A stretch of 64,000 nucleotides of DNA, taken from the NCBI RefSeq assembly GCF_023238445.1, contig NZ_CP096658.1:744001-808000 (forward strand), written 5' to 3'. Shown here piece after piece: positions 26,021 through 48,542 of the stretch. Both the position numbers and the translations under genes were made by a program. Below the pieces are notes generated by a model. The model had not been told where the DNA came from. It ran no database searches and saw nothing but the letters and a program-made list of their open reading frames with translations. This stretch comes from Halorussus gelatinilyticus. Lineage in GTDB: Archaea; Halobacteriota; Halobacteria; Halobacteriales; Haladaptataceae. The stretch's first letter is position 1. Each line of letters starts with the position of its first letter.

Positions 26021-26466
26021 GCCTCGGGAGCGATGCGAACTGTATCGGTCGGGAGTGTACGCCGGGTCCGGCGCTTCTCGCGGTCGAGCGGACTCCGAGG
26101 GCGGTGGGGCGTGACGCCTGTGGCAGTCGCCATTGTCGTTGTTCACCGATTCTACGGCAGGTATAAAACGTTGTTCGCCGCGCCTCACCCGTCGGTTCTG
26201 ACACGTCGAACGCACTGCGAACGCTCGGGTCATTCGAGGAACACGTCGAAGTCGGAGTCGAGAACGCGAGAGGGTCACCGTCGCTCAGGAACGAAACGTT
26301 GCGGGAGAAGTGGGCCGGCGCGAATTCGAATCGCGGTTACGGCCACCCGAAGGCCGAAGGATACCAAGCTACCCCACCGGCCCGCAGGTGGACAGAAGGC
26401 GGTCGGAAGTTTAATCCTTCCGGATTCGCCCGACCGGTCGGGCGGGACTCCTCTCGCGGCGCTCGA
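26021..26466. other. Intergenic region containing tRNA-Pro
   Basis: Besides the tRNA no gene was recognised. The stretch 26120-26300 is somewhat AT-richer (ATTGTCGTTGTTCACCG, GGTATAAAACG) and has a TATA-like TATAAAA at 26162-26168. Confidence 0.5.
26311..26383 (-). tRNA. tRNA-Pro (anticodon CGG)
   Basis: The minus strand folds as a full tRNA. The acceptor stem is GGGCCGG (26383-26377) with CCGGCCC (26318-26312), with discriminator A at 26311. The D arm has loop AGCTTGGTA. The anticodon stem is CGGCC/GGCCG with loop TTCGGGT, giving anticodon CGG at 26349-26347. A 4-base variable loop follows, then the T arm CGCGA/TCGCG with loop TTCGAAT. It has 73 bases, no encoded CCA and no intron. It reads CCG codons, common in this high-GC genome. 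GGATTAAACTT, 25-35 bases upstream, may be its TATA region. Confidence 0.95.
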
Positions 26467-31131: not shown

Positions 31132-31271
31132 ACCTTCGGCTTGGAGTCGAAGCGACCTGTACCTGCCGACCGTCCGAGACCGCCTCGGGCCGACCGAGAC
31201 AGCGCGCCGGACCGCGCGTTCCTGCGGGTCGTTCTCCCGGTCGGCCGGTGGCGCTCGCCGCACCTACGGGC

Positions 31272-31715
31272 CTACGCTTCGAGAATCTCCACGAGGTTGC
31301 CCTCCGGGTCGCGAACGAACAGGATTTTCGTCCCGCTCGCGGTCGTCTGCGGTTCGCTCACCGTCTCGACCGCGGGCGGTAGCTCGTCGTAGAAGCCATC
31401 GAGGTCCGCGACCGCGAGACCGAGGTGTTTCGCTCCCGGCTGGTTGACGCGCTCGGCGGCCGCTTCGTCGCCTTCGGGGTCGTACGCGACGAGTTCGACG
31501 CGGGCGGACCCGGCGTCGAGGTGCGCGAACTCGCCGGTCGCGCCCGGCACGCCGACGCCCTCGGCGAACGCCTCGCCCGAGACCGAGAATCGGTCGAGTA
31601 CGTCGAGACCCAGCGCGTCACGGTAGAACGCGACCGCACGGTCGAGGTCCGTCACCGTCACGCCGACGTGGTGTGCAGTTGGGTCGGAGCGGTTTTCGGT
31701 TTGTTCTGTGGTCAT
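31272..31715 (-). CDS. VOC-family (glyoxalase-fold) protein
   Basis: A 147-residue protein with two beta-alpha-beta3 modules: THHVGV-like start (HHVGVTVTDLDRAVAFYRDALGL in pieces, metal His16), ARVELVAYDP (metal Glu), then HLGLAVADLD and ILFVRDPEGNLVEILE (final Glu). All four usual metal ligands (His, Glu, His, Glu) are present. It could be lactoylglutathione lyase-like or methylmalonyl-CoA epimerase-like; no neighbour supports one. It is the last normal high-GC gene before the mosaic region. Confidence 0.9.
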   Translation of the reverse strand: MTTEQTENRSDPTAHHVGVTVTDLDRAVAFYRDALGLDVLDRFSVSGEAFAEGVGVPGATGEFAHLDAGSARVELVAYDPEGDEAAAERVNQPGAKHLGLAVADLDGFYDELPPAVETVSEPQTTASGTKILFVRDPEGNLVEILEA

Positions 31716-32599
31716 GTAAGGGAGACCGAGAAGGATGCGGAAAGCCCTGTCCGTTTGACGCTGTGCTAGTGATTCACGAAGCGGTTCTACACCCCTCTGG
31801 CACGTGCGTTCGGCGCGAAGATGGCCGTGAGGACTTCCAAATGCTACTCTACAAATCGACTCTCTTCCGGAAGTTACGGCGTCTAGAGGGGGTGTAAACC
31901 AGAGTATGGATAGTGAATGAGGTTCGGTCGCGCGAGAGAGTGCGCTTTCGCTAGTAATCTGCTTATAGTGTTCCAATACGACGTTCTCCGAGAGATGTGG
32001 TCGTCGGTTCCGACGCCGTGAGACCGGTTCTGGTAGCGGCAGAGTAGCGTCGTCAGGCGTAAAATCAGAATTCACCGGTACACCTCCTGTTTTACCGGCG
32101 AATTCAGGTGATTCGGGATTCGTACCGCTAAGCACCTTAAATCAGGCTGCTACAGGAAGAACAGCATTCTGTGGGCCTCTACCCCTCATTTCCGTCAGGG
32201 TAGTATGAGAGTGATAAAGATACATTCTAAGCGCGTAGTGGCGTGGTTTGAGAAAACAGCAGCCTACACCCATCTAGTCGCTCGAAAAATCCATTTGAAT
32301 CATGGGCCACTCTAGCGCCTCATATTCTACATCCGGTACTTAGCGCTTCGTTCTGCCGTCTGAAGAACCACGTAGTTCCCCTCCCTTTCTCTAAACGGGT
32401 CAGAAGACACCACCCATTTGCTACACCCCTCCTCGACACCGCTTCTTTCGGCTTATCTACGGGGTGTAGAGGAGGGCAGCAGACGCTATTGGGTCTTTCC
32501 GGGCAACTGGTCCAGTGGCGTCTTGTAGAAGCGAGTGTACGCACGGGTCTTTCGGCCACCTCAATCAGCGGATCCAAGGAGACTGTTGATTTGATGTTC
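31716..32599. other. Gene-poor AT-richer region with inverted repeats
   Basis: No convincing gene was found in 880 bases. The stretch contains inverted pairs of the same core: TACACCCCTCT (31788-31798) with AGAGGGGGTGTA (31885-31896), and CTACACCCC (32421-32429) with GGGGTGTAG (32461-32469). The sequence may be the outer part of the replication-origin region or debris from the duplicated glycan module. Confidence 0.5.
32068..32105. repeat. 13-bp imperfect inverted repeat
   Basis: GAATTCACCGGTA (32068-32080) faces TACCGGCGAATTC (32093-32105) with one mismatch and a 12-base spacer. Possible hairpin or protein site; no gene ends here to need a terminator. Confidence 0.6.
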
Positions 32600-32722
32600 T
32601 GGTCGAAAGCAAAGGAACTCACCAGCTACGAGCCGACGACCATCCGAAAAGGCGTCGGAGCGTTCACTGAATGGTACCGAGGGAATGGAGGATGGTACGA
32701 GCCGCTTGTCCAGAATTGTTGA
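32600..32722 (+). pseudogene. 3' remnant of a sugar-nucleotide epimerase gene
   Basis: About 40 codons read SKAKELTSYEPTTIRKGV and FTEWYRGNGGWYEPLVQNC, which match the last residues of the two full epimerases at 37268 and 42833 (SKANELIGYEPTTTIREGV and WYRANREWYEPLVRNS), with one residue missing. Nothing upstream continues the match, so only the tail survives. It is a third, mostly lost copy of the module that follows. Confidence 0.85.
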
Positions 32723-32901
32723 CTGACTGCTCTTACTTTCGGGGAGTTAAGCTCGCTATCGGACCAGAGTAACGGCATTTGAGGGCCGTTCGTAGTCTCT
32801 CAGTCGGTGTTTCCTTCATCTATCTTCGTATCGAAGGTGTTCAGAGTTCCCCCAATAAAAGACGCTTTCCGGTTGACGGACGACGGTGCAGCCAAAAAGT
32901 G

Positions 32902-33220
32902 AGACACACCCCACAACGAGTGAATATTTAAGAACGGAATTCTTGACCGAGGCCAACTCGTAGCGATACACCCAGTAACGAGTAAAACCCTCAAAGTTAG
33001 CTTCGAATGTTCGTTTACAGCGTCTACAACGAATGAAGAGTAGGCTGGAGAAACACTACAAATGAGAGATCGTCTTCGTAGAGAGACACTCATTCATTGC
33101 TACCCCTATGGTTTCACTCGTTCCAAGGTGTGTCTATTACGTGTGTTACACATATAAACAAATATTTCTCCACATCTTAGTCTCGATCGTGGGGTTTTGA
33201 AGTGATTCACTCGTTAGGTG
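32902..33220. other. Candidate replication origin: ORB-like repeats around AT-rich core
   Basis: Four boxes share the core CACTCGTT, 2-5 bases, then GGTG(TGTCT). Two are inverted (32902-32923 and 32966-32983) and two direct (33115-33135 and 33208-33220). They flank AT-rich sequence at about 32984-33114 directly upstream of orc1/cdc6. Inverted origin recognition boxes around an unwinding element next to the initiator gene are the standard archaeal origin layout. No replication data are available. Confidence 0.75.
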
Positions 33221-33228
33221 GCATCGCT

Positions 33229-33238
33229 ATATTTAATA
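33229..33238 (+). promoter_or_regulatory. TATA box of orc1/cdc6
   Basis: ATATTTAATA lies 24-33 bases before the ATG at 33262, consistent with a leaderless transcript. The last origin box ends 8 bases upstream of it, so initiator binding could repress its own gene. Confidence 0.65.
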
Positions 33239-33261
33239 CATAGTAGTGGGAACGGCCTGTA

Positions 33262-34464
33262 ATGGAAGACTCGTCTAAGTCGGATTTTGACGATATATTC
33301 GAGACAGGAGATATCTTTGCAGATCGTGAACTACTTCGTGTCGGCCACGTTCCGAAACTAAACCGAGTTGTCGGCCGTGATGAAGAGGTGCGAGAAGTCG
33401 GTAGTGCACTCGGACCGGCGACTCAAGGTGGACCACCAGAGACGATAATTATATACGGAAAAACTGGGACTGGAAAGTCCCTCGTGACGAGGTGTACGAC
33501 CCGGGAAGCTCATCGGAAAGCTCTTGAGAACAGTAGCTCGTTCCAATATTCCTACATCGACTGTTCGGACTATCAGACCGAAGCCAAAGCCAGTCGAGAA
33601 ATGGCGCAGGAGTTATGTGAGAATCTTGGTGCAGATGTCAATGTTCCCCGTGTCGGAATAGCGTCATCAGATTATCGTGATATCGTTTGGGAGTTGCTTG
33701 ACGAACACGGGATCGAGTCCTACGTGGTCATCCTCGACGAAATCGATAAGCTCGAAAACAACGAGATTCTCCGTAGTCTCTCACGTGCACGCGAAAGCGG
33801 AAAATCTGATGCTCACGTCGGCGTGATTTGTATCAGTAACAAAATCGGATATCGGGATCGATTGAACGAGCGTATCGACTCTAGTCTTCAAGATAACGAA
33901 CTCTTCTTCCATCCGTACGACGCAAATCAGCTTCGCAACATCCTCGAAAACCGACGAGATGCGTTTACGGAAGGCGTCCTCGAAAGCGATGTGATACCCA
34001 AGGCTGCCGCTCTTGCTGCACAGGAACACGGTGACGCTCGAAAAGCAGTCGATATCCTCTATGAAGCGGGACGACTCGTGGAGAAGGCTGGCGATGAAAT
34101 GGTTACGGTCGAACACGTCGATGACGCGCAGACGAAGGCCGAAGTCAACCGCTTTCGAGAACTCATCAGCGGGACGACGCCCCACGTGAAACACGCACTT
34201 CGAGCATTAGCGTTACTTACAGAAAATACGACGCAGGATACGTTTCGGACGCACAAAATCTACGAAACGTACAAGCGATTAGTTCAACAAGAAGGCGGGG
34301 ATGTCCTCTCTGAAGACCGAATCTATCGGTTGCTCAAAGAACAGTCCTTCCTCGGAATCATCGAGAGCAACCATACTGGTGGCGGGTTAGGTGAGGGAAG
34401 CTACCTCGAACATCGACTCCTCGGTGATTCCCAAGTCGTCACCCAAGCCCTAACTGAAGAATAA
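33262..34464 (+). CDS. orc: Orc1/Cdc6 replication initiator
   Basis: A 400-residue AAA+ ATPase. Walker A is YGKTGTGKS (about 65-73), Walker B VVILDEIDKLE (about 155-165), sensor 1 near GVICISNKIGYRDRL, sensor 2 in the EHGDARKAVDILYEAGR segment, and a winged-helix domain from about 290 (FRTHKIYETYKRLVQQ). It binds origin repeats, which surround the gene on both sides. Codon use is AT-richer than neighbours, suggesting a plasmid or recently acquired origin. It is separated from aglB by 285 bases carrying more boxes. Haloarchaea usually have several Orc paralogues; which one this is cannot be told. Confidence 0.96.
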   Translation: MEDSSKSDFDDIFETGDIFADRELLRVGHVPKLNRVVGRDEEVREVGSALGPATQGGPPETIIIYGKTGTGKSLVTRCTTREAHRKALENSSSFQYSYIDCSDYQTEAKASREMAQELCENLGADVNVPRVGIASSDYRDIVWELLDEHGIESYVVILDEIDKLENNEILRSLSRARESGKSDAHVGVICISNKIGYRDRLNERIDSSLQDNELFFHPYDANQLRNILENRRDAFTEGVLESDVIPKAAALAAQEHGDARKAVDILYEAGRLVEKAGDEMVTVEHVDDAQTKAEVNRFRELISGTTPHVKHALRALALLTENTTQDTFRTHKIYETYKRLVQQEGGDVLSEDRIYRLLKEQSFLGIIESNHTGGGLGEGSYLEHRLLGDSQVVTQALTEE

Positions 34465-34472
34465 GCAACGCT

Positions 34473-34605
34473 CACTCGGTATGGGGTGTGTCCCCCCTAA
34501 ACGCTATTACACTCGTTGTGAGGTGTGCCTCGGGATGGTTCGCTCAATACACGGTGTACTAGTAAAACTCACCGTCTAGCACTACACTCGTTATCGGGTG
34601 TGTCT
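34473..34605. other. ORB-like boxes downstream of orc1/cdc6
   Basis: Three direct boxes: 34473-34492, 34510-34530 and 34585-34605, each CACTCG(T/G)T, 4-5 bases, GGTGTG(T/C)C. A weaker one lies at 34541-34558. All are in the same orientation as the boxes just before the gene. The block is copied, diverged, at 39998-40090. Confidence 0.75.
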
Positions 34606-34719
34606 GAGAAGCTTGATTCTCCACCAGTTCAGCGTAAAACCCACATACAATCGAATTTGTAAATAGACATAGTAGCGATAGTGCGCCAGAAAGAGTTGTC
34701 GTAAACGAGTGTCGTAGGG

Positions 34720-34727
34720 TTTATACA
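34720..34727 (+). promoter_or_regulatory. TATA box before aglB-like gene
   Basis: TTTATACA lies 23-30 bases before the ATG at 34750. A related TTTATCTG with similar flanks (CACGTTA, CAACCACCATGA) precedes the aglB remnant at 41738, showing that the promoter was duplicated with the gene. Confidence 0.65.
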
Positions 34728-34749
34728 CTATTCACGTTACGCAACCACC

Positions 34750-37134
34750 ATGAGTAGTGTACGCGAGGCGACCGAGGACCTCCTCGGGGAGAAACCCGAC
34801 CTCGAATCGGACCTCCGCGAGGTCCTCGCGGTAGACGAGCGCGCCGACGGCTGGGCATTCGACGACGTGCCCGTGGACTCCGGCGCCTTCGGCGAACTCG
34901 TCTCCCGCGACATCGTCGCCGAGAACGGGGACGGCTACGAAGTCGCCGACCCCGACGCGGTTCGGGCGAGCCTCGACGGAGACGCCGAAACCGTGGCCGA
35001 CGCGGACGCGAGCGGCCCGACCCTCCCGTCGCTCTCGCTCGAATCGCTCCCCTCGCTGTCGCGGCTCGAAGCGGGCGGACTCGCCGCCGCGCTGGCGTTC
35101 GTTCTCCTGATGCGAACGTACATCTTCCCGACCGTGTTCCGCGGCGAGTACGTCGTCCTCCCTTCGAACGACCCCTACTACTACCGCTACTGGGTCGAAC
35201 AGCTCTCGGCGGAGGCGGCCGGCGTCTTCGACTTCAGCGTCCTCTCGGGCCTGCCCGGTGCCGTGGCGAAGAGCGAACCGCTGATGGTCGGGACGCTCTG
35301 GTGGTTCACGAACCTTTTCGGCGGGGCCGACGCCGCCGGGCGGGTGCTGGCGTGGTACCCCGTCGTCTCGGCGCTCGTCGTCGCCGCGCTCGTCTACGCG
35401 CTCGCGGTCCGGGTCACCGACGACCGCCGGGTCGGTCTCGCCTCGGTCACCTTCCTCGCGGTAATCCCCGCGTTCGCCTACCGGACCGGTCTCGGGTTCG
35501 CCGACCACCACGCCTTCGACTACCTGTGGCTCGCGCTAACCGCGCTCGGACTGGTCTGGCTCTCGGACGTCGAGCGCGAGGACCTCTCCTCTCCTAAATC
35601 GTGGCTGGCCGCGACCGCGCTCGGCGTCGCGGTCGCCGGACAAGTGATGGCGTGGGAGGCCGGACCGCTCCTCGTCGGCGCAGTCGGCGTCTTCGCCGCT
35701 GTCCGGGCCGCCGCGGACGTGCGCGCCGACCGGTCGCCGCTCGCCGCGAGCGCGTCGCTCCTCGCCGGACTCGCGGTCGCCACCCTACTCTCGCACCTCG
35801 CGCACACCGGCTTCGGATGGCACACCGACGTAGTGGCCTACTCCCCGGCGCTGTTGCTCGTCGGAGTTCTCGCCGTCTCGCTTGCCGGCGAGGCGGTTCG
35901 GCGGGCGGGGATGCCCGCGTTCGTCCTCGGCGGAGCGGAGGTCGCGGGCGCACTGAGCGCGCTAGCGCTCCTCCAGTTCGTCCTGCCGACGTACGCGAAT
36001 CGGTTGTACCGTCAACTCGACTTCCTCCTGTTCAAATCCGGCGCGGCCGAGACTCAGTCTCTCTTCGCGGGCGGTCCGGCCGGATTCTTCATCGGCCCCA
36101 TTCTCGAACTCGGCTTCGCGTGGCTGCTCGCGGTGCCGACGCTCGCGCTGCTCTCGTGGCGAGCGTACCGACGCGACCACGTCCCGTGGCTGGTCGTCTG
36201 CACGTACGGCTGGTACTTCCTCGTGCTTGCGGCGTTCCAGCGCCGATTCGTCGGCGAACTCGCACCGTTCGCGGCGGTGTTGGCCGGTTACGGCTTCCTC
36301 GTGTTCGCCGCGAAGGTCGATTTGCTCTCGCAGTTCGGCTTCGGCGAGGACGACCCGCGAGCCGAGAACGATGCGGACGGTTCCACTCGACGCACGCTCG
36401 GACTCCCCGACAGAGGGACGGCCGCGACGCTCGCGGTTCTGCTGCTGTTTCTCGTCAGCGCGGGCGGCGTCCAGACCGCGGTCCGTCACCAACAGGTGAA
36501 GATTGTGGACGACAAATTCGAGGCCGCGACGTGGATAGACGGCTACGCAGAGCGACAGGGCTTGGAGTACCCGAACAACTACGTCTTGAGCAAGTGGGGC
36601 CGCAACCGGATGTACAACTACTTCGTCAATGGCGAGTCAAGGTCGTACGGCTTCGCGTATCGACGGTACGCACCGTTCCTCAGGTCATCGGACCCCGCGG
36701 CACAATATCAAAAGTTGCACGAAAAGGTCGGCTTCGTCGTGACGAAGAACGTCAATTTGAACGGGCGGGCCGCACCGAAGATCAACTACGCGAGATTCCA
36801 CAAGCGGTTCGGAAGCGCCGGACCGAACGGTGCCAGCGGTGCCGGCCACTACAAGGCGCTCTACGCGAGCGACGACGGGTCGGTGAAGGTGTTCTCGCTG
36901 GTGCCGGGCGCGAACGTCACCGGAACCGTCGGGGAAAACGAGACGGTAACCCTCTCGAAGAAAGTCGAAATCGAGGGCGCGTCGTTCACGTATCGACGAA
37001 GCATTACGGCGGGTCCCGACGGCGACTTCTCGGTGACGGTTCCCTACGCGGGGACGTACTCCGTCGGCAACCGGACCGTCGAAGTTCCCGAGAGCGCCGT
37101 CGAGAACGGCGGTAACGTCACCGTCGGCGCGTAG
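34750..37134 (+). CDS. aglB: STT3/AglB-like oligosaccharyltransferase lacking WWDYG
   Basis: A 794-residue GT-C enzyme. Residues 1-95 form a soluble N-terminal domain with a winged-helix look, followed by about 12-13 membrane helices (about 105-520) and a C-terminal extracellular domain ending in beta-rich sequence with NVT/NET sequons. STT3 features: SNDPYYYRYW (first acidic motif, D about 140), GFADHHAFD (second acidic motif) and SGAAETQS (flexible-loop Glu). The sequon-binding WWDYG is absent; the equivalent place has SKWGRNRMYNYFVNGES. It probably transfers lipid-linked glycan to Asn of surface proteins, or is a related transferase. Just downstream, 133 bases away, is the epimerase. It lies next to orc1/cdc6. 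Confidence 0.85.
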   Translation: MSSVREATEDLLGEKPDLESDLREVLAVDERADGWAFDDVPVDSGAFGELVSRDIVAENGDGYEVADPDAVRASLDGDAETVADADASGPTLPSLSLESLPSLSRLEAGGLAAALAFVLLMRTYIFPTVFRGEYVVLPSNDPYYYRYWVEQLSAEAAGVFDFSVLSGLPGAVAKSEPLMVGTLWWFTNLFGGADAAGRVLAWYPVVSALVVAALVYALAVRVTDDRRVGLASVTFLAVIPAFAYRTGLGFADHHAFDYLWLALTALGLVWLSDVEREDLSSPKSWLAATALGVAVAGQVMAWEAGPLLVGAVGVFAAVRAAADVRADRSPLAASASLLAGLAVATLLSHLAHTGFGWHTDVVAYSPALLLVGVLAVSLAGEAVRRAGMPAFVLGGAEVAGALSALALLQFVLPTYANRLYRQLDFLLFKSGAAETQSLFAGGPAGFFIGPILELGFAWLLAVPTLALLSWRAYRRDHVPWLVVCTYGWYFLVLAAFQRRFVGELAPFAAVLAGYGFLVFAAKVDLLSQFGFGEDDPRAENDADGSTRRTLGLPDRGTAATLAVLLLFLVSAGGVQTAVRHQQVKIVDDKFEAATWIDGYAERQGLEYPNNYVLSKWGRNRMYNYFVNGESRSYGFAYRRYAPFLRSSDPAAQYQKLHEKVGFVVTKNVNLNGRAAPKINYARFHKRFGSAGPNGASGAGHYKALYASDDGSVKVFSLVPGANVTGTVGENETVTLSKKVEIEGASFTYRRSITAGPDGDFSVTVPYAGTYSVGNRTVEVPESAVENGGNVTVGA

Positions 37135-37267
37135 CAGTCGGTAGACTGTTCCGTAGTCGACGTAACGTGTACGACCGGGTAACCGACTAGTAAACACCGG
37201 ATTCCGAAGATTCGGCCTGTAAGCTACCCAGTGGCTTTTTGCTATTCGCGGTTGCGAACAGTAGGTG

Positions 37268-38254
37268 ATGCGAATACTCGTTACCGGCGGTGCCGGGTTC
37301 ATCGGCGGCCACCTCGCGGAAGGGTTCGCCAGCGACGGCCACGACGTGGTCGCGCTCGACAACTTCGAGCCGTTCTACGACACGGGAATCAAGGAGCACA
37401 ACGTCGAGGCGGCGCGCGAAGCGGCCGCGGAAGGCGACGGCAGTTACGAACTGGTCGAAGGCGACGTGCGCGACGAGGAAGTCGTCGGCGAGCAGGTCGC
37501 CGACGCCGACGTAATCTTCCATCAGGCCGCCCAAGCCGGCGTCCGGACCAGCGTCGAGGAGCCCCAGAAGGTCAACGACATCAACGTCTCGGGCACGCTC
37601 AACGTGCTGGAGGCCGCCCGAAGTTCGGACACCGAGCGCGTCGTCGTCGCGTCGTCGTCGTCGGTGTACGGTAAACCCGAATACCTGCCCTACGACGAGG
37701 ACCACCCGAACACGCCGGTCAGCCCCTACGGCGCCTCGAAGGTGGCTCAGGAGCAGTACGCGCGCGTCTACAACGAGGTCTACGGCCTGCCGACCGTCTC
37801 GTTGCGGTACTTTACGGTGTACGGCCCGCGGATGCGCCCGAACATGGCCATTAGCAACTTCGTCTCGCGGTGCATGAACGGCGAGCCGCCGGTCATCTAC
37901 GGTGACGGCACCCAGACGCGGGACTTCACCTTCGTCGGCGACGTGGTGGAAGCGAACCGGACGCTTCTTGACACCGACGCGGCTGACGGCGAGGCGATGA
38001 ACGTCGGGAGTACCGACAACATCGAGATTCGGGTCTTGGCTGAGGAGATACGCGACCAACTCGCGCCCGACCTCGAACTGGAGTTCGGCGAGCGCAACGA
38101 CGCCGACGCCGAGCATACGCACGCCGACATCTCGAAGGCCAACGAACTCATCGGCTACGAACCGACAACGACCATCCGAGAGGGCGTCAAGCAGTTCACC
38201 GACTGGTACCGGGCAAATCGGGAGTGGTACGAACCGCTCGTCCGGAACTCCTGA
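37268..38254 (+). CDS. NAD-dependent sugar-nucleotide epimerase (extended SDR), copy 1
   Basis: A 328-residue extended SDR. NAD motif GGAGFIGG (7-14), DNFEPFYD, HQAAQAGVR, catalytic SSSVYG with Y154-x3-K158 (SPYGASK), and RYFTVYGPRMRPN, YGDGTQTRDFTFV. The pattern is that of UDP-glucuronate 4-epimerase/UDP-glucose 4-epimerase enzymes. The ATG at 37268 is chosen over the GTG just before it; the second copy starts at the equivalent codon. By hand alignment about 47 of 328 residues differ from copy 2. It is the last gene of an aglB-epimerase unit and supplies a UDP-sugar. Confidence 0.93.
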   Translation: MRILVTGGAGFIGGHLAEGFASDGHDVVALDNFEPFYDTGIKEHNVEAAREAAAEGDGSYELVEGDVRDEEVVGEQVADADVIFHQAAQAGVRTSVEEPQKVNDINVSGTLNVLEAARSSDTERVVVASSSSVYGKPEYLPYDEDHPNTPVSPYGASKVAQEQYARVYNEVYGLPTVSLRYFTVYGPRMRPNMAISNFVSRCMNGEPPVIYGDGTQTRDFTFVGDVVEANRTLLDTDAADGEAMNVGSTDNIEIRVLAEEIRDQLAPDLELEFGERNDADAEHTHADISKANELIGYEPTTTIREGVKQFTDWYRANREWYEPLVRNS

Positions 38255-38258
38255 CTGG

Positions 38259-38820
38259 TTACTTAGATTTCCTGAAGATGTCGAGGGCAAGTTCAGTTCT
38301 AGTGCCAAGGACGACCTTGTCTGGGTCCCGGAAGTCCGCTACCGCGCTCCCCTTCCGGAGGAACTTGGGGTTCATCGCCATGTGGAAGTCTTCGTCGAGC
38401 GTCTTCCCAGAGGTATCGGCGGGTATCGGGGCGACGGTCTCCTCGGTGGTGCCGGGAACGACCGTGGACTTGACCACGACTAGATGCGAGTCGTCGGAGG
38501 ATAGCGCCTCACCGAGCGACTGCGCGCCCGCTTCCATGATGTCGAGATCGATGTCCTCGCGGGACGGTGTCGGTAGTGTGAGGAACGTGACGTCTGTTTC
38601 CCGAACTGCAGCATAGTCGGTGGTCGCCCGCAGTCGGCCCCCCACCGTATTCGGCGACGAGGTCGTCGAGGCCGAGTTCGTGAATCCGAGCGTCGGCCGC
38701 GTTGATGGAGTCGACAAGTTGCTCGTCGATATCGATGTTCGTCACCTCGTGACCATAGTCGGCGAAGCAGGCGGCGACAGTGGTGCCGACGTAGCCGCTC
38801 CCGACGATGCTGACGTTCAT
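38259..38820 (-). pseudogene. aglM: Truncated, frameshifted UDP-glucose/UDP-sugar 6-dehydrogenase (AglM-like)
   Basis: From the ATG at 38820 the protein reads MNVSIVGSGYVGTTVAACFAD and LGLDDLVAEYGGG, then leaves frame in a run of six G (plus strand C, about 38637-38642); the +1 frame continues GRLRATTDYAAVRETDVTFL, VVKSTVVPGTT and MNPKFLRKGSAV to a stop at 38259. Removing one G restores an unbroken frame. The product ends after about 187 residues, while family members have about 430, so the catalytic-Cys domain is missing. The start matches aglM/UDP-glucose dehydrogenases. It is a dead copy, or the frameshift could be a sequencing error in a gene that is truncated anyway. Confidence 0.88.
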
Positions 38821-39032
38821 TACCGGATGTGTTTGCGGGAGTTTTCTTTAGGCTTCAGGTCTTGGAGGGTGAAAGCCAGCGTGCAGTTGGTGAGATACTC
38901 GCGTTGGTTGCGCTCTATCTCGGTCACAGACGACCCTACTTAGACGCGTAGGGGGAGTGGTAAATCCGAGACCCATGTCAAGGTCATCTGTATTAGCAAC
39001 AAAATCGAATACCGTGACCGATTGAAGGAACG

Positions 39033-39040
39033 CGTCGACT
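39033..39040. repeat. IS target-site duplication, left copy
   Basis: CGTCGACT precedes the IS and recurs at 39773-39780 after it. The 8-base length is usual for IS6-family transposition. Joining the flanks at one copy restores cdc6 homology. Confidence 0.9.
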
Positions 39041-39772
39041 GGCACTGTCTAGTTAAGGAGCGAGCAGGTCAAAGAGCTAGTTGTTCATGCTACTCTCAAA
39101 CCTGCTCAGAGAGACGTTAGATACCGCGACTCTTGAATGTTGGCAGCGGGAGCGGACGGCGACGCCCGTCAGGGCGTTCGCCGTCCGGCTCCACGCTGCT
39201 GGCTGTTCGCTCAGAGAAACAGCAGCGATTCTTGAGCTCCTCGGCGTTGAACGGACGCATGGAGCGGTTTGGAACTGGGTGCATCGGCTGGCTGACAGCG
39301 TCGGCGACCCGCCGTCGGCGACGCCGACGCGGGTCGCGGTCGACGAGACCGCTGTCCGGATTAACGGCGAGTGGTCTTGGGTGTACGCTGCAATTGACCT
39401 CGAAACGAAGGTGCTACTTGATGTCGCCGTGTTTGGTCGGCGTGGCACCGATCCAGCGGCCGCGTTCCTCCACGGTCTCACCCAGAAACACGATTGTTCA
39501 GAAACCGTGTTTCTGGTCGATGGTGCAGGCTATCTGACTGCCCTCTCTCGATTAGGATTGAGCGGTCACCTTGAATATGTTGACCGAAACCACATCGAAA
39601 AGTGGTTTCACACCCTCAAAATGAGAATTGACCGCTTCCATTCGTCGTGGGTGGGCAGTCGGCCGAGCGTCCGCCAGTGGCTTGCATCGTTTGTTCATTA
39701 CTATAACTTCCAGCGACCGCACCAAGCACTCGATGAACGCACGCCAGTCGAGGAGGAAAACTAGACAGTGCC
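39041..39772 (+). mobile_element. IS6-family insertion sequence, 732 bp, complete
   Basis: Perfect 14-bp inverted ends: GGCACTGTCTAGTT at 39041-39054 and AACTAGACAGTGCC at 39759-39772. An 8-bp target duplication flanks it and one intact transposase fills it. Both its size and its ends match the haloarchaeal IS6 elements. The intact ends, TSD and ORF suggest a recent insertion into an already decaying cdc6 copy. Confidence 0.95.
39087..39764 (+). CDS. tnpA: IS6-family transposase
   Basis: A 225-residue DDE transposase. N-terminal HTH (AAGCSLRETAAILELLGVERTH in pieces), then the catalytic triad: Asp in RVAVDETAVRI, Asp in FLVDGAGYL, and Glu in DRNHIEKWFHTLKMR, with HYYNFQRPHQAL at the end typical of IS6. 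The ATG at 39087 is preferred over a TTG two codons earlier. The frame is complete, so the element may still be able to move. Confidence 0.95.
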   Translation: MLLSNLLRETLDTATLECWQRERTATPVRAFAVRLHAAGCSLRETAAILELLGVERTHGAVWNWVHRLADSVGDPPSATPTRVAVDETAVRINGEWSWVYAAIDLETKVLLDVAVFGRRGTDPAAAFLHGLTQKHDCSETVFLVDGAGYLTALSRLGLSGHLEYVDRNHIEKWFHTLKMRIDRFHSSWVGSRPSVRQWLASFVHYYNFQRPHQALDERTPVEEEN

Positions 39773-39997
39773 CGTCGACTTTAGTCTACAGGACAATGAA
39801 CTGTTCCTCCTCCGAAACATGGCGGAGATGCCGTCTTTGAAGATTGAGTCTATCGACTTCTCAAAGAACAGTCTTTCCTCGGGATAATCTAGAGCAATCA
39901 CACCGGTGGTCAACTCGGGGAAGGGGTTACTTGGAACACCGACTTCTCGGTAATCCTCCAGTCCCACCCTAGCCTTAGTTGAAGAACAAGCAACGTT

Positions 39998-40090
39998 CAC
40001 TCTGTACGAGGTATGCCTCGGAACGGTTCACTCGATACGAGGTGAATAGTGGACTGACCGTCCAACAGTACCTCGTTGTTGGGTGTGTCT
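39998..40090. other. Decayed second set of ORB-like boxes
   Basis: CACTCTGTACGAGGTATGCCT (39998-40018), CACTCGATACGAGGTG (40029-40044) and CCTCGTTGTTGGGTGTGTCT (40071-40090) correspond in order and spacing to the boxes after the intact orc1/cdc6 (34473-34605). The last box keeps the core; the first two have changes. Confidence 0.75.
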
Positions 40091-40171
40091 GAGAATTCCA
40101 ATAGTCTAAATAATTGCCACGGTGCTGTTAAATGAGGGAGTATCGACGGAAAGCCGTATAGAGATAACAGG

Positions 40172-40179
40172 TTTTAAGC
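40172..40179 (+). promoter_or_regulatory. TATA-like element before the sugar transferase
   Basis: TTTTAAGC is 25-32 bases before the ATG at 40204. It is just after the second box array. Confidence 0.45.
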
Positions 40180-40203
40180 TATAGCAATATCCCAAATCGG
40201 GTG

Positions 40204-41604
40204 ATGGTCTCCGGGTTCCGGTATCGAGTGGTAAGCGTCGTCGGCGCGGCGTTCATCGCGGCTATCGCCGTCTTGATGGCGAATGCCTCCTCTTTACAGA
40301 CTCTGTTTACGACTGCGGTCCCGGTGTTCCGGCGACTGCCACCAACCGTGTTGACCGGGAACAAACTCACTTTAGTCGTCGTGACGACGACGCTCGTGGT
40401 CGTCGGCAGTTTGATGCCGCTGTTCAAACCCAGGCCCCGACGGATACTCGACACAATCCTCCTCGCCCAGCGGCGCACGGTCACCGCCTGCCTCGCGCTC
40501 GCCACTATCGGGTACTTCGACTATACATATCGGCTTCCCCGATCTACGCTCGTACTGGCGACAATCGGCCTTCTTATCGGCCTTCCGGCGTGGTTTGTCG
40601 CAATTCGCCGACGGCCGGTCGAAAAAGAGCGAGCGGTCATCGTCGGTGACGACTCCGAAGAGATTGCCGACGTGCTGGACGAAATCGACGTACCGGTTGT
40701 CGGCTACGTTTCACCGCCGAGTCCGTACTACACCGGCCACAATGGAGTTTCGAGCGAGCGTGCCGTCACCGACGGCAGCGGTGAGGCGTTGCTGGAGGAC
40801 TTGGACTGTCTCAGCGGTCTTTCGCGTCTCGAGGAAGTGCTTGTCGATTATAATGTGGATACGGTGGTGCTGGCATTCGCCCAGCCCGATCGGGCGGAGT
40901 TCTTCGGCGCGCTCGATACCTGTTACGAGCACGGCGTCGACGCGAAGGTCCACCGGGAGCACGCGGACGACGTGCTGACGACGACTACGCGCGGGGACGA
41001 GGTGCTCGTCGACGTCGAACTCGAACCGTGGGACTGGCAGGATTACGTGTTCAAGCGGGGGTTCGACGGGGCGTTCGCTTCGGTTGGGTTGCTGGCGTTT
41101 GCGCCGTTCCTAGTGGTGATTGCAGTCGCAATCAAAATCGACAGTCCTGGTCCGATTCTATACAGTCAGGAGCGGACGGCGGAGTTCGGGGACACGTTTA
41201 CCGTCTACAAATTCCGGACGATGATTCCCGAGGATGAGTCGGTGATGCCCATCGAAGACGAGGCGAACGACCGCATCACCCGCGTCGGGCGCTTCCTCCG
41301 TAAGACGCATCTTGACGAAGTGCCCCAACTCTGGTCGATTCTCGTCGGCGAGATGAGCGTCGTCGGACCTCGGGCTGTCTGGACCGACGAAGAGCAACTG
41401 CTGGAGGAGACGACCGACATGTGGCGCAAGCGCTGGTTCGTCAAGCCAGGACTGACGGGGTTAGCGCAGATCAACGACGCCAAGAGCACGGACCCAGCCG
41501 CGAAACTCCGATACGATCTCGAATACATCCGCCGCCAGTCGTTCTGGCTCGACGTGAAAATCGTGGTTCGGCAAATTTGGAAGGTATTTGCCGACGCCTT
41601 GTAG
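40204..41604 (+). CDS. Polyprenyl glycosylphosphotransferase (WbaP/WcaJ-like)
   Basis: A 466-residue initiating enzyme for a lipid-linked glycan. About four to five helices lie in the first 140 residues, followed by a CoA-binding-like soluble segment (ERAVIVGDDSEEIADVL), and then the phosphoglycosyltransferase module from about 275: KRGFDGAFASVGLL, a re-entrant membrane helix, KIDSPGPILYSQERT, VYKFRTM and RKTHLDEVPQLWSILVGEMSVVGPR with KPGLTGLAQIN. It moves a sugar 1-phosphate from UDP-sugar to dolichyl phosphate. The ATG at 40204 is chosen over the adjacent GTG. A glycan pathway begins here, after the second cdc6 remnant. Confidence 0.93.
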   Translation: MVSGFRYRVVSVVGAAFIAAIAVLMANASSLQTLFTTAVPVFRRLPPTVLTGNKLTLVVVTTTLVVVGSLMPLFKPRPRRILDTILLAQRRTVTACLALATIGYFDYTYRLPRSTLVLATIGLLIGLPAWFVAIRRRPVEKERAVIVGDDSEEIADVLDEIDVPVVGYVSPPSPYYTGHNGVSSERAVTDGSGEALLEDLDCLSGLSRLEEVLVDYNVDTVVLAFAQPDRAEFFGALDTCYEHGVDAKVHREHADDVLTTTTRGDEVLVDVELEPWDWQDYVFKRGFDGAFASVGLLAFAPFLVVIAVAIKIDSPGPILYSQERTAEFGDTFTVYKFRTMIPEDESVMPIEDEANDRITRVGRFLRKTHLDEVPQLWSILVGEMSVVGPRAVWTDEEQLLEETTDMWRKRWFVKPGLTGLAQINDAKSTDPAAKLRYDLEYIRRQSFWLDVKIVVRQIWKVFADAL

Positions 41605-41737
41605 TAACTGGTCGAGTCCTACTACAACGAATCCGTCTACACCCTCGAAGTGTCATCGTTGATTCCGTTGTCGGACATCTCGCTCCACCGTGTCGCAGGC
41701 TTTATCTGGGCATCACGTTATTCAGCCACCATCCACC

Positions 41738-41947
41738 ATGACTGACGTACGCGAGGCGACAGACGGAGTCCTCGCGGAGAAACAAAACCTCAAATCAGAC
41801 TTGCGTGAAGTTCTCTCTGTCGACGAGCGCACCGACGGATGGTCCTTCGACGACGTGCTACTCGACTCGGGGACGTTGGGCGAGTTTCCTTGTAGAAGCT
41901 ATTCTAATTTCTTAGCCTCTATTGACAATTTTTTCTCTGAACAGTGA
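41738..41947 (+). pseudogene. 5' remnant of aglB
   Basis: The first 49 codons match the N terminus of the full gene at 34750: VREATDGVLAEKQNLKSD and VLSVDERTDGWSFDDVLLDSG, with several substitutions. After GTLGEF the frame leaves homology and ends with 20 unrelated residues. The missing 740 residues include all membrane helices. The promoter is also duplicated. It marks the right part of the duplicated unit. Confidence 0.88.
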
Positions 41948-41998
41948 GCAACGCGGCCGCTGCCGTTCGACGTGTGATAGTTACTCGGAGTCTAAAAC

Positions 41999-42006
41999 TA
42001 TTTAAC
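41999..42006 (+). promoter_or_regulatory. TATA box for nucleotidyltransferase gene
   Basis: TATTTAAC lies 24-31 bases before the ATG at 42030, indicating a leaderless transcript. Confidence 0.55.
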
Positions 42007-42029
42007 ACTCGGTGAGTGTCCACGTGTAT

Positions 42030-42779
42030 ATGAAAGCCGTCGTGCTAGCTGCCGGAGAAGGAACCCGACTTCGACCCCTAACTGAGGACAAGCCGAAGGG
42101 AATGGTCGAAGTGGACGGAAAGCCGATCCTCAACCACTGCTTCGATCAACTGGCCGAACTGGGGGCCGACGAGTTCGTGGTTGTAGTGGGATACCGCAAG
42201 CAGGATATCATCGAATACTACGGTGACGAGTATGACGGTATCCCCATCACGTACGCTCACCAGCGTGAGCAGAAGGGACTTGCTCATGCATTGCTCACGG
42301 TTGAGGAACACATCGACGACGACTTCATGCTCATCTTGGGCGACAACATCTTTGACGCGAATCTAGGTGACGTGGTCAAACGCCAACGGGAGGACCGCGC
42401 GGACGCGGCCTTCCTCACGGAGGAAGTTCCGTACGAGGAGGCGAGTCGATACGGGGTGTGTGATACCAACGACTACGGTGAGATTACCAACGTGGTTGAG
42501 AAACCCGAGAACCCGCCGTCGAACCTCGTGATGACTGGCTTCTACACCTTCACGCCCGCAATCTTCCATGCATGTCATCTGGTCCAACCGTCGAACCGCG
42601 GCGAGTACGAGATCAGCGAGGCCATCGACCTGCTCATCCAGAGCGGCCGGACGATAGATGCAATTCGGATGGACGGTTGGCGAGTAGACGTCGGATATCC
42701 CGAAGACCGGGACCGGGCAGAAAGCCTCCTTCAGGGTGAGGAGCCAGAGCCAGAGGTAGCGGAAGTGTCGTCCGACTGA
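42030..42779 (+). CDS. Sugar-1-phosphate nucleotidyltransferase (AglF/RmlA-like)
   Basis: A 249-residue enzyme: VLAAGEGTRLRPLTEDKPKGM (motif in two parts), ILNHCFDQL, YAHQREQKGLAHAL, the metal-binding LGDNIFD, and VEKPENPPS. Active form likely makes UDP-glucose, dTDP-glucose or similar. The ATG at 42030 starts MKAVVLAAGEG; the GTG six codons upstream is not needed. The gene is 53 bases before epimerase copy 2, so the two likely share a transcript and pathway. Confidence 0.93.
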   Translation: MKAVVLAAGEGTRLRPLTEDKPKGMVEVDGKPILNHCFDQLAELGADEFVVVVGYRKQDIIEYYGDEYDGIPITYAHQREQKGLAHALLTVEEHIDDDFMLILGDNIFDANLGDVVKRQREDRADAAFLTEEVPYEEASRYGVCDTNDYGEITNVVEKPENPPSNLVMTGFYTFTPAIFHACHLVQPSNRGEYEISEAIDLLIQSGRTIDAIRMDGWRVDVGYPEDRDRAESLLQGEEPEPEVAEVSSD

Positions 42780-42832
42780 CTTCCGGTTCGAACTCGGTGG
42801 TTTTTTCTTGACTCGATTCCCGGCCGGTAGTA

Positions 42833-43819
42833 ATGAGAATACTCGTCACCGGTGGCGCGGGATTCATCGGCGGCCATCTCGCCGAAAAGTTCAGCCGCGA
42901 CGGCCACGACGTAGTTGCGTTTGATAACTTCGAGCCGTTCTACGACGTAGGTATCAAAGAACACAACGTCGAGACGGCGCAGAGAGCTGCCGCGGAAGGC
43001 GATGGAAGCTACGAACTGATAGAGGGCGACCTCCGCGATGAGGAGGTAATTAGCCAGTACGTCGCCGAAGCTGACGTTATCTTCCATCAAGCGGCTCAGG
43101 CCGGCGTCCGTGCCAGCGTCAAGGAACCTCAGAAGGTCAACGATATCAACGTCTCGGGCACGCTGAACGTGCTGGAAGCAGCCCGGGATTCGGAGACCGA
43201 ACGAGTGGTAGTGGCAAGCTCTTCATCGGTGTACGGCAAACCCGAGTATCTGCCCTACGACGAGAATCACTCGACGACGCCCGTGAGTCCCTACGGTGCC
43301 TCAAAACTTGCCCAGGAGCAGTACGCGCGAGTCTACAACGAGGTCTACGGCCTGCCAACCGTCTCGCTGCGGTACTTCACGGTGTACGGCCCGCGGATGC
43401 GCCCCAACATGGCCATCAGCAACTTCGTCTCGCGATGTCTTAACGGCGAGCCACCGGTCATCTACGGCGACGGGACTCAGACGCGAGACTTCACCTACAT
43501 CGACGACGTGGTTGAGGCTAATCGAACACTCCTCACAACCGACACCGCCGACGGTGAGGTCCTGAACATCGGTAGTACTGATAACATCGAGATTCGGACG
43601 CTGGCCAAGGAGATACGTGACCAACTCTCCCCGGACCTTGAATTGGAGTACGACGAGCGCAACGACGCCGACGCCGAACACACCCACGCCGACATCTCGA
43701 AAGCCAACGACCTGCTTGGATACGAACCCACGATGACCATCCGCAAGGGCGTCGAAGAGTTCGCCGACTGGTACCGGGAGAACCGAGATTGGTACGAACC
43801 GCTTGTTCGTAGCTCGTGA
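42833..43819 (+). CDS. NAD-dependent sugar-nucleotide epimerase, copy 2
   Basis: A 328-residue extended SDR almost the same as copy 1 at 37268 (about 86% identical by hand count). The same features are present: GGAGFIGG, Y154-x3-K158 in SPYGASK, and YGDGTQTRDFTYID. Differences lie mainly in residues 19-82 and 270-326. Both copies are complete and codon-clean, so both probably work. It follows the nucleotidyltransferase and precedes a GT4, giving a compact glycan operon. Confidence 0.93.
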   Translation: MRILVTGGAGFIGGHLAEKFSRDGHDVVAFDNFEPFYDVGIKEHNVETAQRAAAEGDGSYELIEGDLRDEEVISQYVAEADVIFHQAAQAGVRASVKEPQKVNDINVSGTLNVLEAARDSETERVVVASSSSVYGKPEYLPYDENHSTTPVSPYGASKLAQEQYARVYNEVYGLPTVSLRYFTVYGPRMRPNMAISNFVSRCLNGEPPVIYGDGTQTRDFTYIDDVVEANRTLLTTDTADGEVLNIGSTDNIEIRTLAKEIRDQLSPDLELEYDERNDADAEHTHADISKANDLLGYEPTMTIRKGVEEFADWYRENRDWYEPLVRSS

Positions 43820-43902
43820 ATGCAAGTACAGTGACTCAAAACCGACGGAAAACGCTTCGAGACCAATAGAGTATTAACGACGGGACAGGAGGAACGAACC
43901 GA

Positions 43903-45027
43903 ATGCGGATTCTCCGAGTCGCACAGAAAGTGTATCCGGACGTAAAGGGTGGCGGACCGTACCACGTCCACGCAATGAGTCGGGATCAAGCCGATCGGGG
44001 CCACGATGTGACTGTACTGACTGTCTCTGACGACGACTCGAAACCCCGTCGAGAGGAGCGTGACGGGTACACCGTGGTTCGTCGGAAGCCGACAGCCGAA
44101 CTGCTCGGAAACGACATCTCGAGTGGAGTTGCCAAGTTCTTGGCCAGTGCGGGCGACTATGACGTAATCCACGCCCATTCACATCTATACTTCTCGACGA
44201 ATCTCGCAGCCCTGAAGCGGCGACTCGGAGACATCCCGCTGGCAATCACGAACCACGGCCTCTACTCACAGAACGCCCCCGAGTGGGTGTTCGACGCTTA
44301 CCTTAAAACCGCAGGCCGTTGGACGTTCGATAGTGCAGATGTCGTGTTGTGTTACACTGAGGAAGACCGAGAGCGGGTGCAGGGGTTTGGCGTCAACACC
44401 GATATTGAAGTCGTGTCGAATGGTATCGACCAGACACGATTTACACCAGAGGGGCCAAGAAGCGATCTCGTGGATTCCGACGGGCCGGTCGTACTCTTTG
44501 TCGGGCGGTTGGTTGATGGCAAGCGGCCGCAGGACGCAGTTAGGGCGTTCGCAGGTGTCCACCGAGAGCATACCGACACCGAACTATACCTTTGTGGCGA
44601 CGGCCCGCTACACGACAAACTACAGACGCAAGCGGCCGAGCTCGGCGTCTCGGAGGCAGTCACGTTCCTCGGTCACGTCTCCTACGACGAGATGCCGAAA
44701 GTGTACCGATCGGCGGACATTCTGGTACTTCCGAGTCGGGCAGAGGGACTTCCCCGGACCGTGTTGGAGGCGTTCGCGGCCGAGACCCCGGCCGTAACAA
44801 GTGACCTCGAACATGTCGCGCCGGTCGTTCGCCACGCCGGGAAAACGTATCCCACCGGAAACACCGATGCGTTTGAGGACGCGCTCAGCGAACTACTCTC
44901 GAACCCTAAGCGTGCGAAGTCACTCGGTGAGGATGGACGCAAACTGGTCAACTGCAGGTTCAGATGGGAGGAGACTGTCACTAAGACAACTGCCGCGCTC
45001 GGTCGCATCTCGAAGGTAAAGAACTAA
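43903..45027 (+). CDS. Family 4 glycosyltransferase
   Basis: A 374-residue GT-B enzyme. The N-terminal domain has GGPYHVHAMSRDQADRGHDVTV and the HAHSHLYFS segment. The C-terminal nucleotide-sugar domain has LFVGRLVDGKRPQDAV, LGHVSYDEMPKVY and the E-x7-E motif PSRAEGLPRTVLEAF. No membrane helices. Likely adds a sugar to the lipid-linked oligosaccharide begun by the phosphoglycosyltransferase at 40204. The start codon at 43903 begins MRILRVAQKVYP. Confidence 0.93.
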   Translation: MRILRVAQKVYPDVKGGGPYHVHAMSRDQADRGHDVTVLTVSDDDSKPRREERDGYTVVRRKPTAELLGNDISSGVAKFLASAGDYDVIHAHSHLYFSTNLAALKRRLGDIPLAITNHGLYSQNAPEWVFDAYLKTAGRWTFDSADVVLCYTEEDRERVQGFGVNTDIEVVSNGIDQTRFTPEGPRSDLVDSDGPVVLFVGRLVDGKRPQDAVRAFAGVHREHTDTELYLCGDGPLHDKLQTQAAELGVSEAVTFLGHVSYDEMPKVYRSADILVLPSRAEGLPRTVLEAFAAETPAVTSDLEHVAPVVRHAGKTYPTGNTDAFEDALSELLSNPKRAKSLGEDGRKLVNCRFRWEETVTKTTAALGRISKVKN

Positions 45028-45052
45028 CAAGTACAGGGGTCCGATACGAGGT

Positions 45053-45316
45053 ATGGACGTAGTACGTACCGTCCGCGAATCGAACATCTATGCGGTCGTA
45101 TCGACGTTGCGCCGGTGGGCACGGGGAAGCACAGTACTATCGATGCTTACTCGGGAGGAGGTCCTTCAGGGCCTTCTCGCCATCGTATTGATCGTCAGTA
45201 CCACCCGTGTCGCTCTCACCAACCTCAACGCGGCAGTGAAATTTCTGAGTTTCGTCGTCCTCTTTCTATTAGTGGTCGTCATCGCGTTGCCGTTCACCGA
45301 ACCATCGTCGGAGTGA
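45053..45316 (+). CDS. Small two-helix membrane protein
   Basis: An 87-residue protein with a polar N terminus, then two hydrophobic helices, about 37-52 (VLQGLLAIVLIVSTT) and 63-82 (VKFLSFVVLFLLVVVIALPF). No family is recognised. It is 25 bases after the GT4 stop on the same strand, so it is probably co-transcribed. Its last 48 bases overlap the end of the convergent membrane-protein gene. Confidence 0.6.
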   Translation: MDVVRTVRESNIYAVVSTLRRWARGSTVLSMLTREEVLQGLLAIVLIVSTTRVALTNLNAAVKFLSFVVLFLLVVVIALPFTEPSSE

Positions 45317-46441
45317 CCGACGCCGCCGTTCGAGTACTGGCGAGGCGAACACGACCAGCAGGAACATGAACGGAATTCGGTGTCTGACGGTGGTTCCGAA
45401 GTTGGAGTCGATAAGTCCGTATCCCACGATTCCGCCGAGATAGACGGTCAGTAGGAGGGCCAAGACGCTCTCATTGGTCTCACACGCGGCCAGAGACCGA
45501 TACGCGGCGACAGTTAGGACAACCAATAACGGTAGTTCGAGTATAGCCAACAAGTCGAACGGAGAGTTTACGTGTAATGGAAACGGAGCGAACTGGAAAA
45601 ACAGGGCGCGAACCGGTGCGAGGAGTAGAACATCGGTCCACGAATCGTAGGTCACACCGTCAAGATACACTGCACTTCCCGACGCCCGAGACGTGAGAAT
45701 ATCGTTGAGGGAAGCCAACGGGAATTCGTGAGTGAAGAGCAGGAAACCGACCACTCCCGTCGGGAGGACGGCCAGCATCAACGTCACAAACGAAATTTTG
45801 TGTCGGGCGACAGTGTCAAGGACCGACACGATTCCAGCGGCAATACTACCGACGAGGAGGAGGAGTGCCAACTCGGTGCGAAGAAGCAAGAGGCAACCGA
45901 CTAGTGGAATTACAGCCAACCCGTGCCAGTATCGAGCGCGGGTGACGACGTTAGTGACGAGGACGAGAGTGACAAACAGCAGTAGTACCGAGAGAGTGTC
46001 TCGCATCGGTAACGTCAGAAAAAGAAACGGAAGAGGTGCGAACAACGCGAGTGCGGCGACGCCATCCGTCGAGTCGATGGCAGAGAGATACAACCTCCGA
46101 GATAGTGAAAACATCGGAATCGGGATTAAGACAGCCAGCAGGCCGTTGATTAGCGAGAGAGTCGTCGGACCGTCTCCGAAAATTACATACAGGAATCCCT
46201 GAAAGGCACCGAACGCATTCACGCTGACCGAATTCGACGGTAGCGAACCGGATGCTACCTGACTTGCAGCAGTGTGGAATGTCGTGATATCCCACTGATA
46301 TGGAAGGGCCGGGATGACGAAAAGTGCTAGAAGGACGTGGCCGACAAGTGCGGCCCCACTTAGATGTCGGTACGTGCGACTCTGCGACCGGGTGGCAAAC
46401 GCGAAAAGTAACAGAATGCTTAGTACCGTAACGAGTACCAT
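45269..46441 (-). CDS. Polytopic membrane protein (Wzy-like or GT-C-like glycan enzyme)
   Basis: A 390-residue protein with about ten to eleven membrane helices, beginning with VLVTVLSILLLFAFAT. Between helix 2 and 3 lies a soluble loop WDITTFHTAASQVASGSL where acidic Asp is placed like the first loop of GT-C enzymes. A late loop holds YDSWTDVLLLAPVRALFF. No exact family is visible; location in a glycan locus and the topology suggest a polymerase (Wzy) or lipid-sugar-dependent transferase. Ends in an Arg-rich tail. It is convergent with the preceding small gene. Confidence 0.75.
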   Translation of the reverse strand: MVLVTVLSILLLFAFATRSQSRTYRHLSGAALVGHVLLALFVIPALPYQWDITTFHTAASQVASGSLPSNSVSVNAFGAFQGFLYVIFGDGPTTLSLINGLLAVLIPIPMFSLSRRLYLSAIDSTDGVAALALFAPLPFLFLTLPMRDTLSVLLLFVTLVLVTNVVTRARYWHGLAVIPLVGCLLLLRTELALLLLVGSIAAGIVSVLDTVARHKISFVTLMLAVLPTGVVGFLLFTHEFPLASLNDILTSRASGSAVYLDGVTYDSWTDVLLLAPVRALFFQFAPFPLHVNSPFDLLAILELPLLVVLTVAAYRSLAACETNESVLALLLTVYLGGIVGYGLIDSNFGTTVRHRIPFMFLLVVFASPVLERRRRSLRRWFGERQRDDDH

Positions 46442-46491
46442 CTAAAATGGGGGAGTTGACAGGAGGTTATATACTCACCGCTTTCGGGTGG

Positions 46492-48393: not shown

Positions 48394-48542
48394 AATTGAT
48401 GTCCAGACGAGGACCGAGACGACGGTCCGAATCTAAGTTCGGCTGGTCGCCGCCCCGAAATAGCTGTTTCGTTTTAATCCGTCAATCGAGTCGAAGGGGA
48501 GTCGTTATACGGGTCGAATCATTTCTCTCGAACGAGATTCAT

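Follow-up and report, generated by a model that had tools for sequence, protein, structure and literature searches.

The 64,000-nucleotide stretch analysed here (the window; G000:C1:744001-808000) comes from the 3.67-Mb chromosome of a haloarchaeon of the genus Halorussus and carries a surface-glycan island with two orc1/cdc6 genes, one intact and one in pieces. We read this island as a recombination hotspot of the Halorussus chromosome, in which gene sets of different lineages have probably been stacked and then thinned (rough probability 0.75). Unit 1 of the island comprises the intact cdc6 gene with boxes resembling origin recognition boxes (ORBs), an aglB-like gene and an epimerase gene (epi1); unit 2 comprises the cdc6 remnant with decayed boxes, a sugar transferase gene (sugTr), the 5′ end of a second aglB-like gene, aglF and a second epimerase gene (epi2). 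We take the units to be tandem xenologues because they differ in synteny, trees, synonymous divergence (dS) and GC content.

A native block and a foreign cassette

The aglB-epi1 block of unit 1 is native, with a GC content of 66% and contiguity with the closest relative (G008).

34750-37134, plus strand: AglB/STT3-like membrane protein of 794 amino acids without the WWDYG motif (PF02516 and PF18079 above cutoff)
37265-38254, plus strand: epi1, NAD-dependent sugar epimerase/dehydratase (Pfam), sister of the G008 epimerase

The match between the window and G008 is continuous over 34712-38254, covering both genes, and extends through the glyoxalase-family gene upstream apart from a 3.0-kb insert. 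In trees, the unit 1 aglB groups with G008 (support 100/98), as does epi1 (97/96), with epi2 placed apart.

Unit 2, judged by its sequence, is a foreign cassette (sugTr, aglB stub, aglF and epi2) that is collinear with Halorussus limi (G013) but for one deletion.

38259-38820, minus strand: remnant of UGD, a UDP-glucose/GDP-mannose dehydrogenase-like gene, frame-broken (translation; 82% to G014)
40201-41604, plus strand: sugTr, polyprenyl glycosylphosphotransferase (Bac_transf; PF02397; 86% to G013)
41730-41883, plus strand: 5′ stub of an aglB-like gene with its promoter region, ending at the junction of a 4.2-kb deletion (41882/41883)
42012-42779, plus strand: aglF, UTP-glucose-1-phosphate uridylyltransferase (NF041313, 442.3 bits, cutoff 400)
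42833-43819, plus strand: epi2, second epimerase, 82% identical to epi1 in DNA and not its sister in trees

The window matches H. limi continuously over 40127-41883 (sugTr and the aglB 5′ end) and over 41882-42931 (aglF and the start of epi2); at the clean junction between these matches, 4.2 kb of the H. limi sequence is missing, comprising the aglB body and UGD, a sugar-nucleotide dehydrogenase. UGD sits between aglB and aglF in G014. The stub groups with H. limi (92/88) and sugTr with H. limi and G015 (98/98). GC content is 0.66 in the native block, 0.58 in unit 2 and 0.50 in the 3.0-kb insert. Measured against G008, dS is 0.31 for the CetZ gene near the left border of the island, 0.46 for aglB and 0.44 for epi1, whereas epi1 and epi2 differ from each other by 0.84; on this basis the units are more likely xenologues than copies that arose in this lineage.

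The first-pass annotation had described the locus as three copies of one segment in different states of decay. Every piece that it named is present where it was placed, and self-comparison by BLASTN recovers each match, with collinear DNA matches between the two cdc6 genes, including their ORB boxes, between the 5′ ends of the two aglB-like genes and among three pieces of epimerase. These are epi1 (37265-38257) and epi2 (42830-43822) at 82%; an epimerase tail (32603-32725) and the 3′ end of epi1 (38132-38257) at 77%; two stretches of cdc6 (33796-33880 and 38956-39040 at 74%; 34294-34490 and 39821-40015 at 76%); the box region (34526-34610 and 40014-40095, 79%); and the aglB 5′ ends (34742-34895 and 41730-41883, 76%). 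With E-values from 0 to 6e-9, chance is excluded. What stands is repeated acquisition at one locus, decay that has gone to different lengths and a Cdc6/ORB unit of origin-like layout within a glycan island; the three copies are not supported. The units share the matched genes and differ between the matches and in ancestry; since unit 2 alone has sugTr and aglF and unit 1 alone a full aglB, no one segment was duplicated as a whole, and the third 'copy' amounts to about 120 nt of an epimerase 3′ end. That annotation had overlooked the UGD remnant and the IS6-family element that interrupts the second cdc6.

If a single orc-aglB-epimerase module had been duplicated locally in tandem and had then decayed, the collinear order of the matched genes and the sister relationship of the two cdc6 copies would follow. 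We consider such a duplication quite improbable: the aglB stub, epi2 and sugTr group away from unit 1, unit 2 is syntenic with H. limi, the two epimerases are further apart in dS than epi1 is from another species, and the GC content of the units is unlike. In its strict form it was set aside as the main account on the synteny with G008 and H. limi, dS and the trees. The expectation that the copies would share an origin is borne out by the trees for the cdc6 pair, whose members are mutual nearest kin within the sampled set (99/87) and the sole such pair of the locus, and fails for the aglB stub and epi2; in gene order, the aglB-epi1 block follows G008 and unit 2 H. limi.

Several observations weigh against stacked sets of different lineages. 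The kinship of the cdc6 copies is expected from local duplication too; an approximately unbiased test of epi1 and epi2 as sisters is borderline (p=0.0505), with no clear rejection, a point in favour of duplication; the stub tree is built on 154 nt; and the comparison covers one strain of the species, in which the state before the addition is not seen.

The Cdc6 genes and their boxes

The intact cdc6 gene lies within the 3.0-kb insert (relative to G008) upstream of aglB, together with the epimerase tail and ORB boxes on both sides of the gene.

31717-34711, no strand: low-GC (0.50) insert of 3.0 kb relative to G008, which has about 93 nt at this place
32603-32725, plus strand: third epimerase piece, 3′ end only (77% to the epi1 3′ end); in G005, a full epimerase gene lies upstream of aglB
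32904-33133: upstream ORB-like boxes (32904-32923, minus; 32966-32985, minus; 33114-33133, plus), with an AT-rich stretch at 33101-33250
33262-34464, plus strand: intact orc1/cdc6 gene, 400 amino acids (TIGR02928; Cdc6_lid, Cdc6_C)
34472-34603, plus strand: downstream ORB-like boxes (34472-34491, 34509-34528, 34584-34603)
38956-40015, plus strand: cdc6 remnant in pieces (38956-39040, 39781 to about 39817, 39821-40015), lacking about 530 nt of the 5′ end and about 375 nt internally
39041-39772, plus strand: IS6-family element lodged in the cdc6 remnant, with its transposase at 39081-39764 and terminal repeats of 14 bp (inverted repeat I7)
39997-40088, plus strand: decayed ORB-like boxes of unit 2

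The intact protein belongs to the Orc1/Cdc6 family (TIGR02928, 371.9 bits against a cutoff of 181.3; C-terminal winged helix, PF09079 and PF22703) and keeps both Walker A (GKTGTGKS) and Walker B (DEID). Its boxes are of the ORB type of its own clade (TTCACTCGGTNNGAGGGGTGT), and 10 of the 11 loose ORB matches in the window fall at the two cdc6 copies. With six boxes across both flanks and a stretch of 60-62% AT upstream, the layout is that of a cdc6-adjacent origin, and the unit may now serve as a minor chromosomal origin, lie dormant as one or be a passenger. The element that interrupts the other copy is of the IS6 family (NF033587, 194.6 bits against a cutoff of 125), has an intact transposase frame and is bounded by an 8-bp target duplication (CGTCGACT, at 39033-39040 and 39773-39780).

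ORB arrays also lie about 100-300 nt upstream of, and on the same strand as, the aglB-like gene in unit 1, sugTr in unit 2 and aglF in G007, as they would if Cdc6 proteins of this clade were partly transcription regulators acting on adjacent glycan genes through boxes near their starts. In Saccharolobus, Orc1-2 has a regulatory part in the DNA damage response. To a regulatory role we nevertheless give very little credence: the gene beside the boxes varies from case to case, and ORBs are found upstream of cdc6 around the AT-rich stretch as well, as in ordinary origins. A parallel that would favour it is cdc6D* of Haloarcula hispanica, which lies in a polysaccharide region and is reported to lack autonomously replicating sequence activity (Wu et al. 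2012, PMC3528665).

How the sets could have come together

Of the stacking that we favour, comparison with relatives shows that the native aglB-like/epi1 block stayed in place and that a second set of the H. limi type (sugTr-aglB-UGD-aglF-epi) was added downstream of it. One internal deletion has removed the duplicate aglB and UGD, so that one aglB-like gene is left intact. In front of each set stands a Cdc6 gene of the same clade with ORB boxes, one of them intact and the other truncated and hit by the IS6 element. Homologous recombination in sequences common to the sets (epimerase, aglB, cdc6/ORB) may have brought them in, the carrier possibly a replicating circle with the Cdc6/ORB unit as its putative origin, and the gain would be an altered cell-surface glycan.

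A more specific version, in line with the plasmid integration that the first-pass annotation had offered, is that a circular replicon, bearing a glycan cassette and a Cdc6/ORB origin of its own, integrated by a single crossover and that the shared genes were left as direct repeats. It is possible but doubtful. The cdc6 remnant does lie between the direct copies epi1 and epi2, and an independent parallel occurs in G280 (L142:5418-17888), where cdc6 is flanked by direct repeats of the epimerase (91%) and aglF (90%). Such a make-up also exists outside chromosomes: a Haloplanus plasmid (L283, NZ_CP098515.1) has an aglB-like gene between two orc1/cdc6 genes, adjoining an S-layer glycoprotein gene, and on plasmid pHTUR04 a member of the clade (66%) and a glycosyltransferase gene are about 6 kb apart. 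A chromosome of Haloferax volcanii has been divided into two circles, each with an origin, by recombination between direct repeats (PMC6063281). HVO_2042 of that species was considered as an orc2 gene linked to oriC3 and dropped, as primer names in the same paper give orc4.

Against an integrated circle, neither an integrase, an attachment (att) site nor a plasmid partition gene occurs among the island proteins and sequence examined, and scans with Rfam and for tRNA genes revealed no place of integration there, the only tRNA gene being at 26310-26383. The 3.0-kb insert does have a near-empty site in G008. A search for crossovers within the epimerases found none, and neither gene is chimeric. 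Strains that exchanged linear DNA by plain recombination would come to look much alike in sequence to this locus.

Cdc6 and glycan genes in other genomes

That cdc6 genes accompany glycan genes is already known; our additions are the xenologous cassettes in tandem and the counts for this clade. The first-pass annotation was mistaken in holding that a link between replication origins and surface glycans had not been described, for papers on Haloarcula (PMC3528665) and Haloferax (PMC5867893) describe it. Species-specific cdc6 origins occur in polysaccharide-biosynthesis regions of Haloarcula hispanica and Haloarcula marismortui, from which Wu et al. 2012 conclude that origins arrive with new genes (PMC3528665). 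As in the window, those orc/cdc6 genes and their ORBs lie in divergent, GC-shifted regions rich in polysaccharide and transposase genes, read as newly acquired; unlike here, the text consulted describes neither cassettes stacked in tandem nor a second cdc6 in decay, and gives no measure of enrichment by family (PMC3528665). Orc1/CDC6 genes are present in most alternative glycosylation clusters of Haloferax, for which a plasmid origin was suggested (PMC5867893, 2018). There too cdc6 adjoins variable N-glycosylation genes, whereas the genes and their order are others, of the agl5-15 type (PMC5867893). The divergent regions and deletion-coupled insertions of Haloquadratum walsbyi likewise exchange cell-surface genes at fixed positions, and that chromosome also contains cdc6 pseudogenes; there one set replaces another, whereas in the present locus the new set has joined the old (PMC3119063).

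We surveyed 123 distinct Cdc6 loci, counting Halorussus-type glycan genes within 9 kb. With the window counted in, the clade of its Cdc6 comprises 52 rows (FastTree support 99), against 72 others. At least one glycan neighbour was found at 22 of the 52 clade loci and at 8 of the 72 others (Fisher p=1e-4, uncorrected for relatedness); random 20-kb windows of the same genomes contained glycan genes in 2 of 20 cases. A post hoc cut at 60% identity or more gives a sharper contrast (21/37 against 8/86), and the clade-based figures are weaker but more trustworthy. Among 13 genomes in which the epimerase and a cdc6 of the clade share a contig, 10 have them within 60 kb of each other (0.4-50 kb apart); the remaining distances are 95, 181 and 1450 kb. 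If genomes with the two on different contigs are counted as unlinked, about 10 of 28 are linked where about 1 is expected (p ~2e-8, again uncorrected for relatedness).

These counts bear on a plainer account, in which glycan islands gather any inserted DNA and cdc6 is one common passenger. Cdc6 genes of other families do occur inside such clusters, in G004, G006 and another genus (g9); the rarity of glycan neighbours among other Cdc6 families, set against the frequency in the clade, makes this account unlikely. At the other extreme, the Orc1/Cdc6-ORB clade might be specialised for glycan cassettes that bring their own initiator and origin, loop out and back in as replicating circles by way of direct repeats of their nucleotide-sugar genes and so spread glycan types from strain to strain, a scenario that we would regard as rather unlikely.

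Across the Halorussus genomes compared, the glycan cluster contains an aglB-like gene, often beside CetZ and glyoxalase genes, and has sugTr, aglF, epi, GT4 and asparagine-synthase-like genes in variable order. Decay of cdc6 has a parallel in G007, where the last 16 codons and three ORB boxes remain between UGD and aglF. In G012, a cdc6 of 81% identity lies 8.7 kb from the aglB-like gene, with ordinary metabolic genes between them. G004, likewise, has a broken aglB-like gene. A second aglB in that genome, considered as a large duplication, was rejected as most likely an untrimmed contig-end overlap: the two ends of contig C1 (L053, L085) overlap over 18.7 kb at 99.8%, so the contig is probably circular and untrimmed.

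An STT3 family without WWDYG

The product of the aglB-like gene falls in an STT3 family of haloarchaea (about 40-84% identity). Its place in the STT3 superfamily is supported by PF02516 and PF18079, by the conserved acidic motifs NDPYYYRYW and GFADHHAFD in the membrane part and by a match to the solved AglB structure 3waj (E 2e-6). It scores 171.7 bits against archaeo_STT3 (TIGR04154), below the cutoff of 450, and nearly all aligned family members have S-K/R/Q-W-G-x-N-R in place of WWDYG, a motif that is present in the canonical AglB of the same genome. Its acceptor may be something other than the N-X-S/T sequon. Our literature search turned up no description of a WWDYG-less STT3 family, which as evidence is weak. 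Separately, the N-terminal ~80 residues of the protein (34750-35079) resemble the N terminus of another membrane protein encoded in this genome, which is EMC3/TMCO1-like (L004:1393-2313; 37% over 59 amino acids).

Borders and remainder of the island

The island spans 32-57 kb of the window and is low in GC, mostly 0.47-0.61 against 0.65-0.70 in the flanks, the exception being the aglB-epi1 block.

28747-29910, plus strand: CetZ gene forming the conserved border of the hotspot on its left side (Pfam CetZ_C/Tubulin), adjoining the glycan cluster in most Halorussus
31272-31716, minus strand: glyoxalase-family gene (Pfam), last native gene before the 3.0-kb insert (89% to G008 over 31269-31680)
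43903-56126, no strand: remaining glycan island with GT4, asparagine-synthase-like, GT2, methyltransferase and flippase genes, the first of them in the same order in G002 and G016

A protein of 390 amino acids (45269-46441) has no Pfam or NCBIfam match and adjoins the asparagine-synthase-like gene, as it also does in G002, G016 and G092. Outside the island, at 2697-3758, a single reading frame region contains direct repeats that match imperfectly (77-131 nt, 73-97%; self-BLASTN).

Implications

The locus offers a sequence-level view of how an archaeal surface gene set may change, a second set being added beside the first and the surplus deleted. The association of cdc6 with polysaccharide genes, until now anecdotal, becomes measurable and attaches to a single Cdc6 clade with an ORB type of its own. 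A question apart is the acceptor of an STT3-family protein in which the sequon-binding motif is missing.

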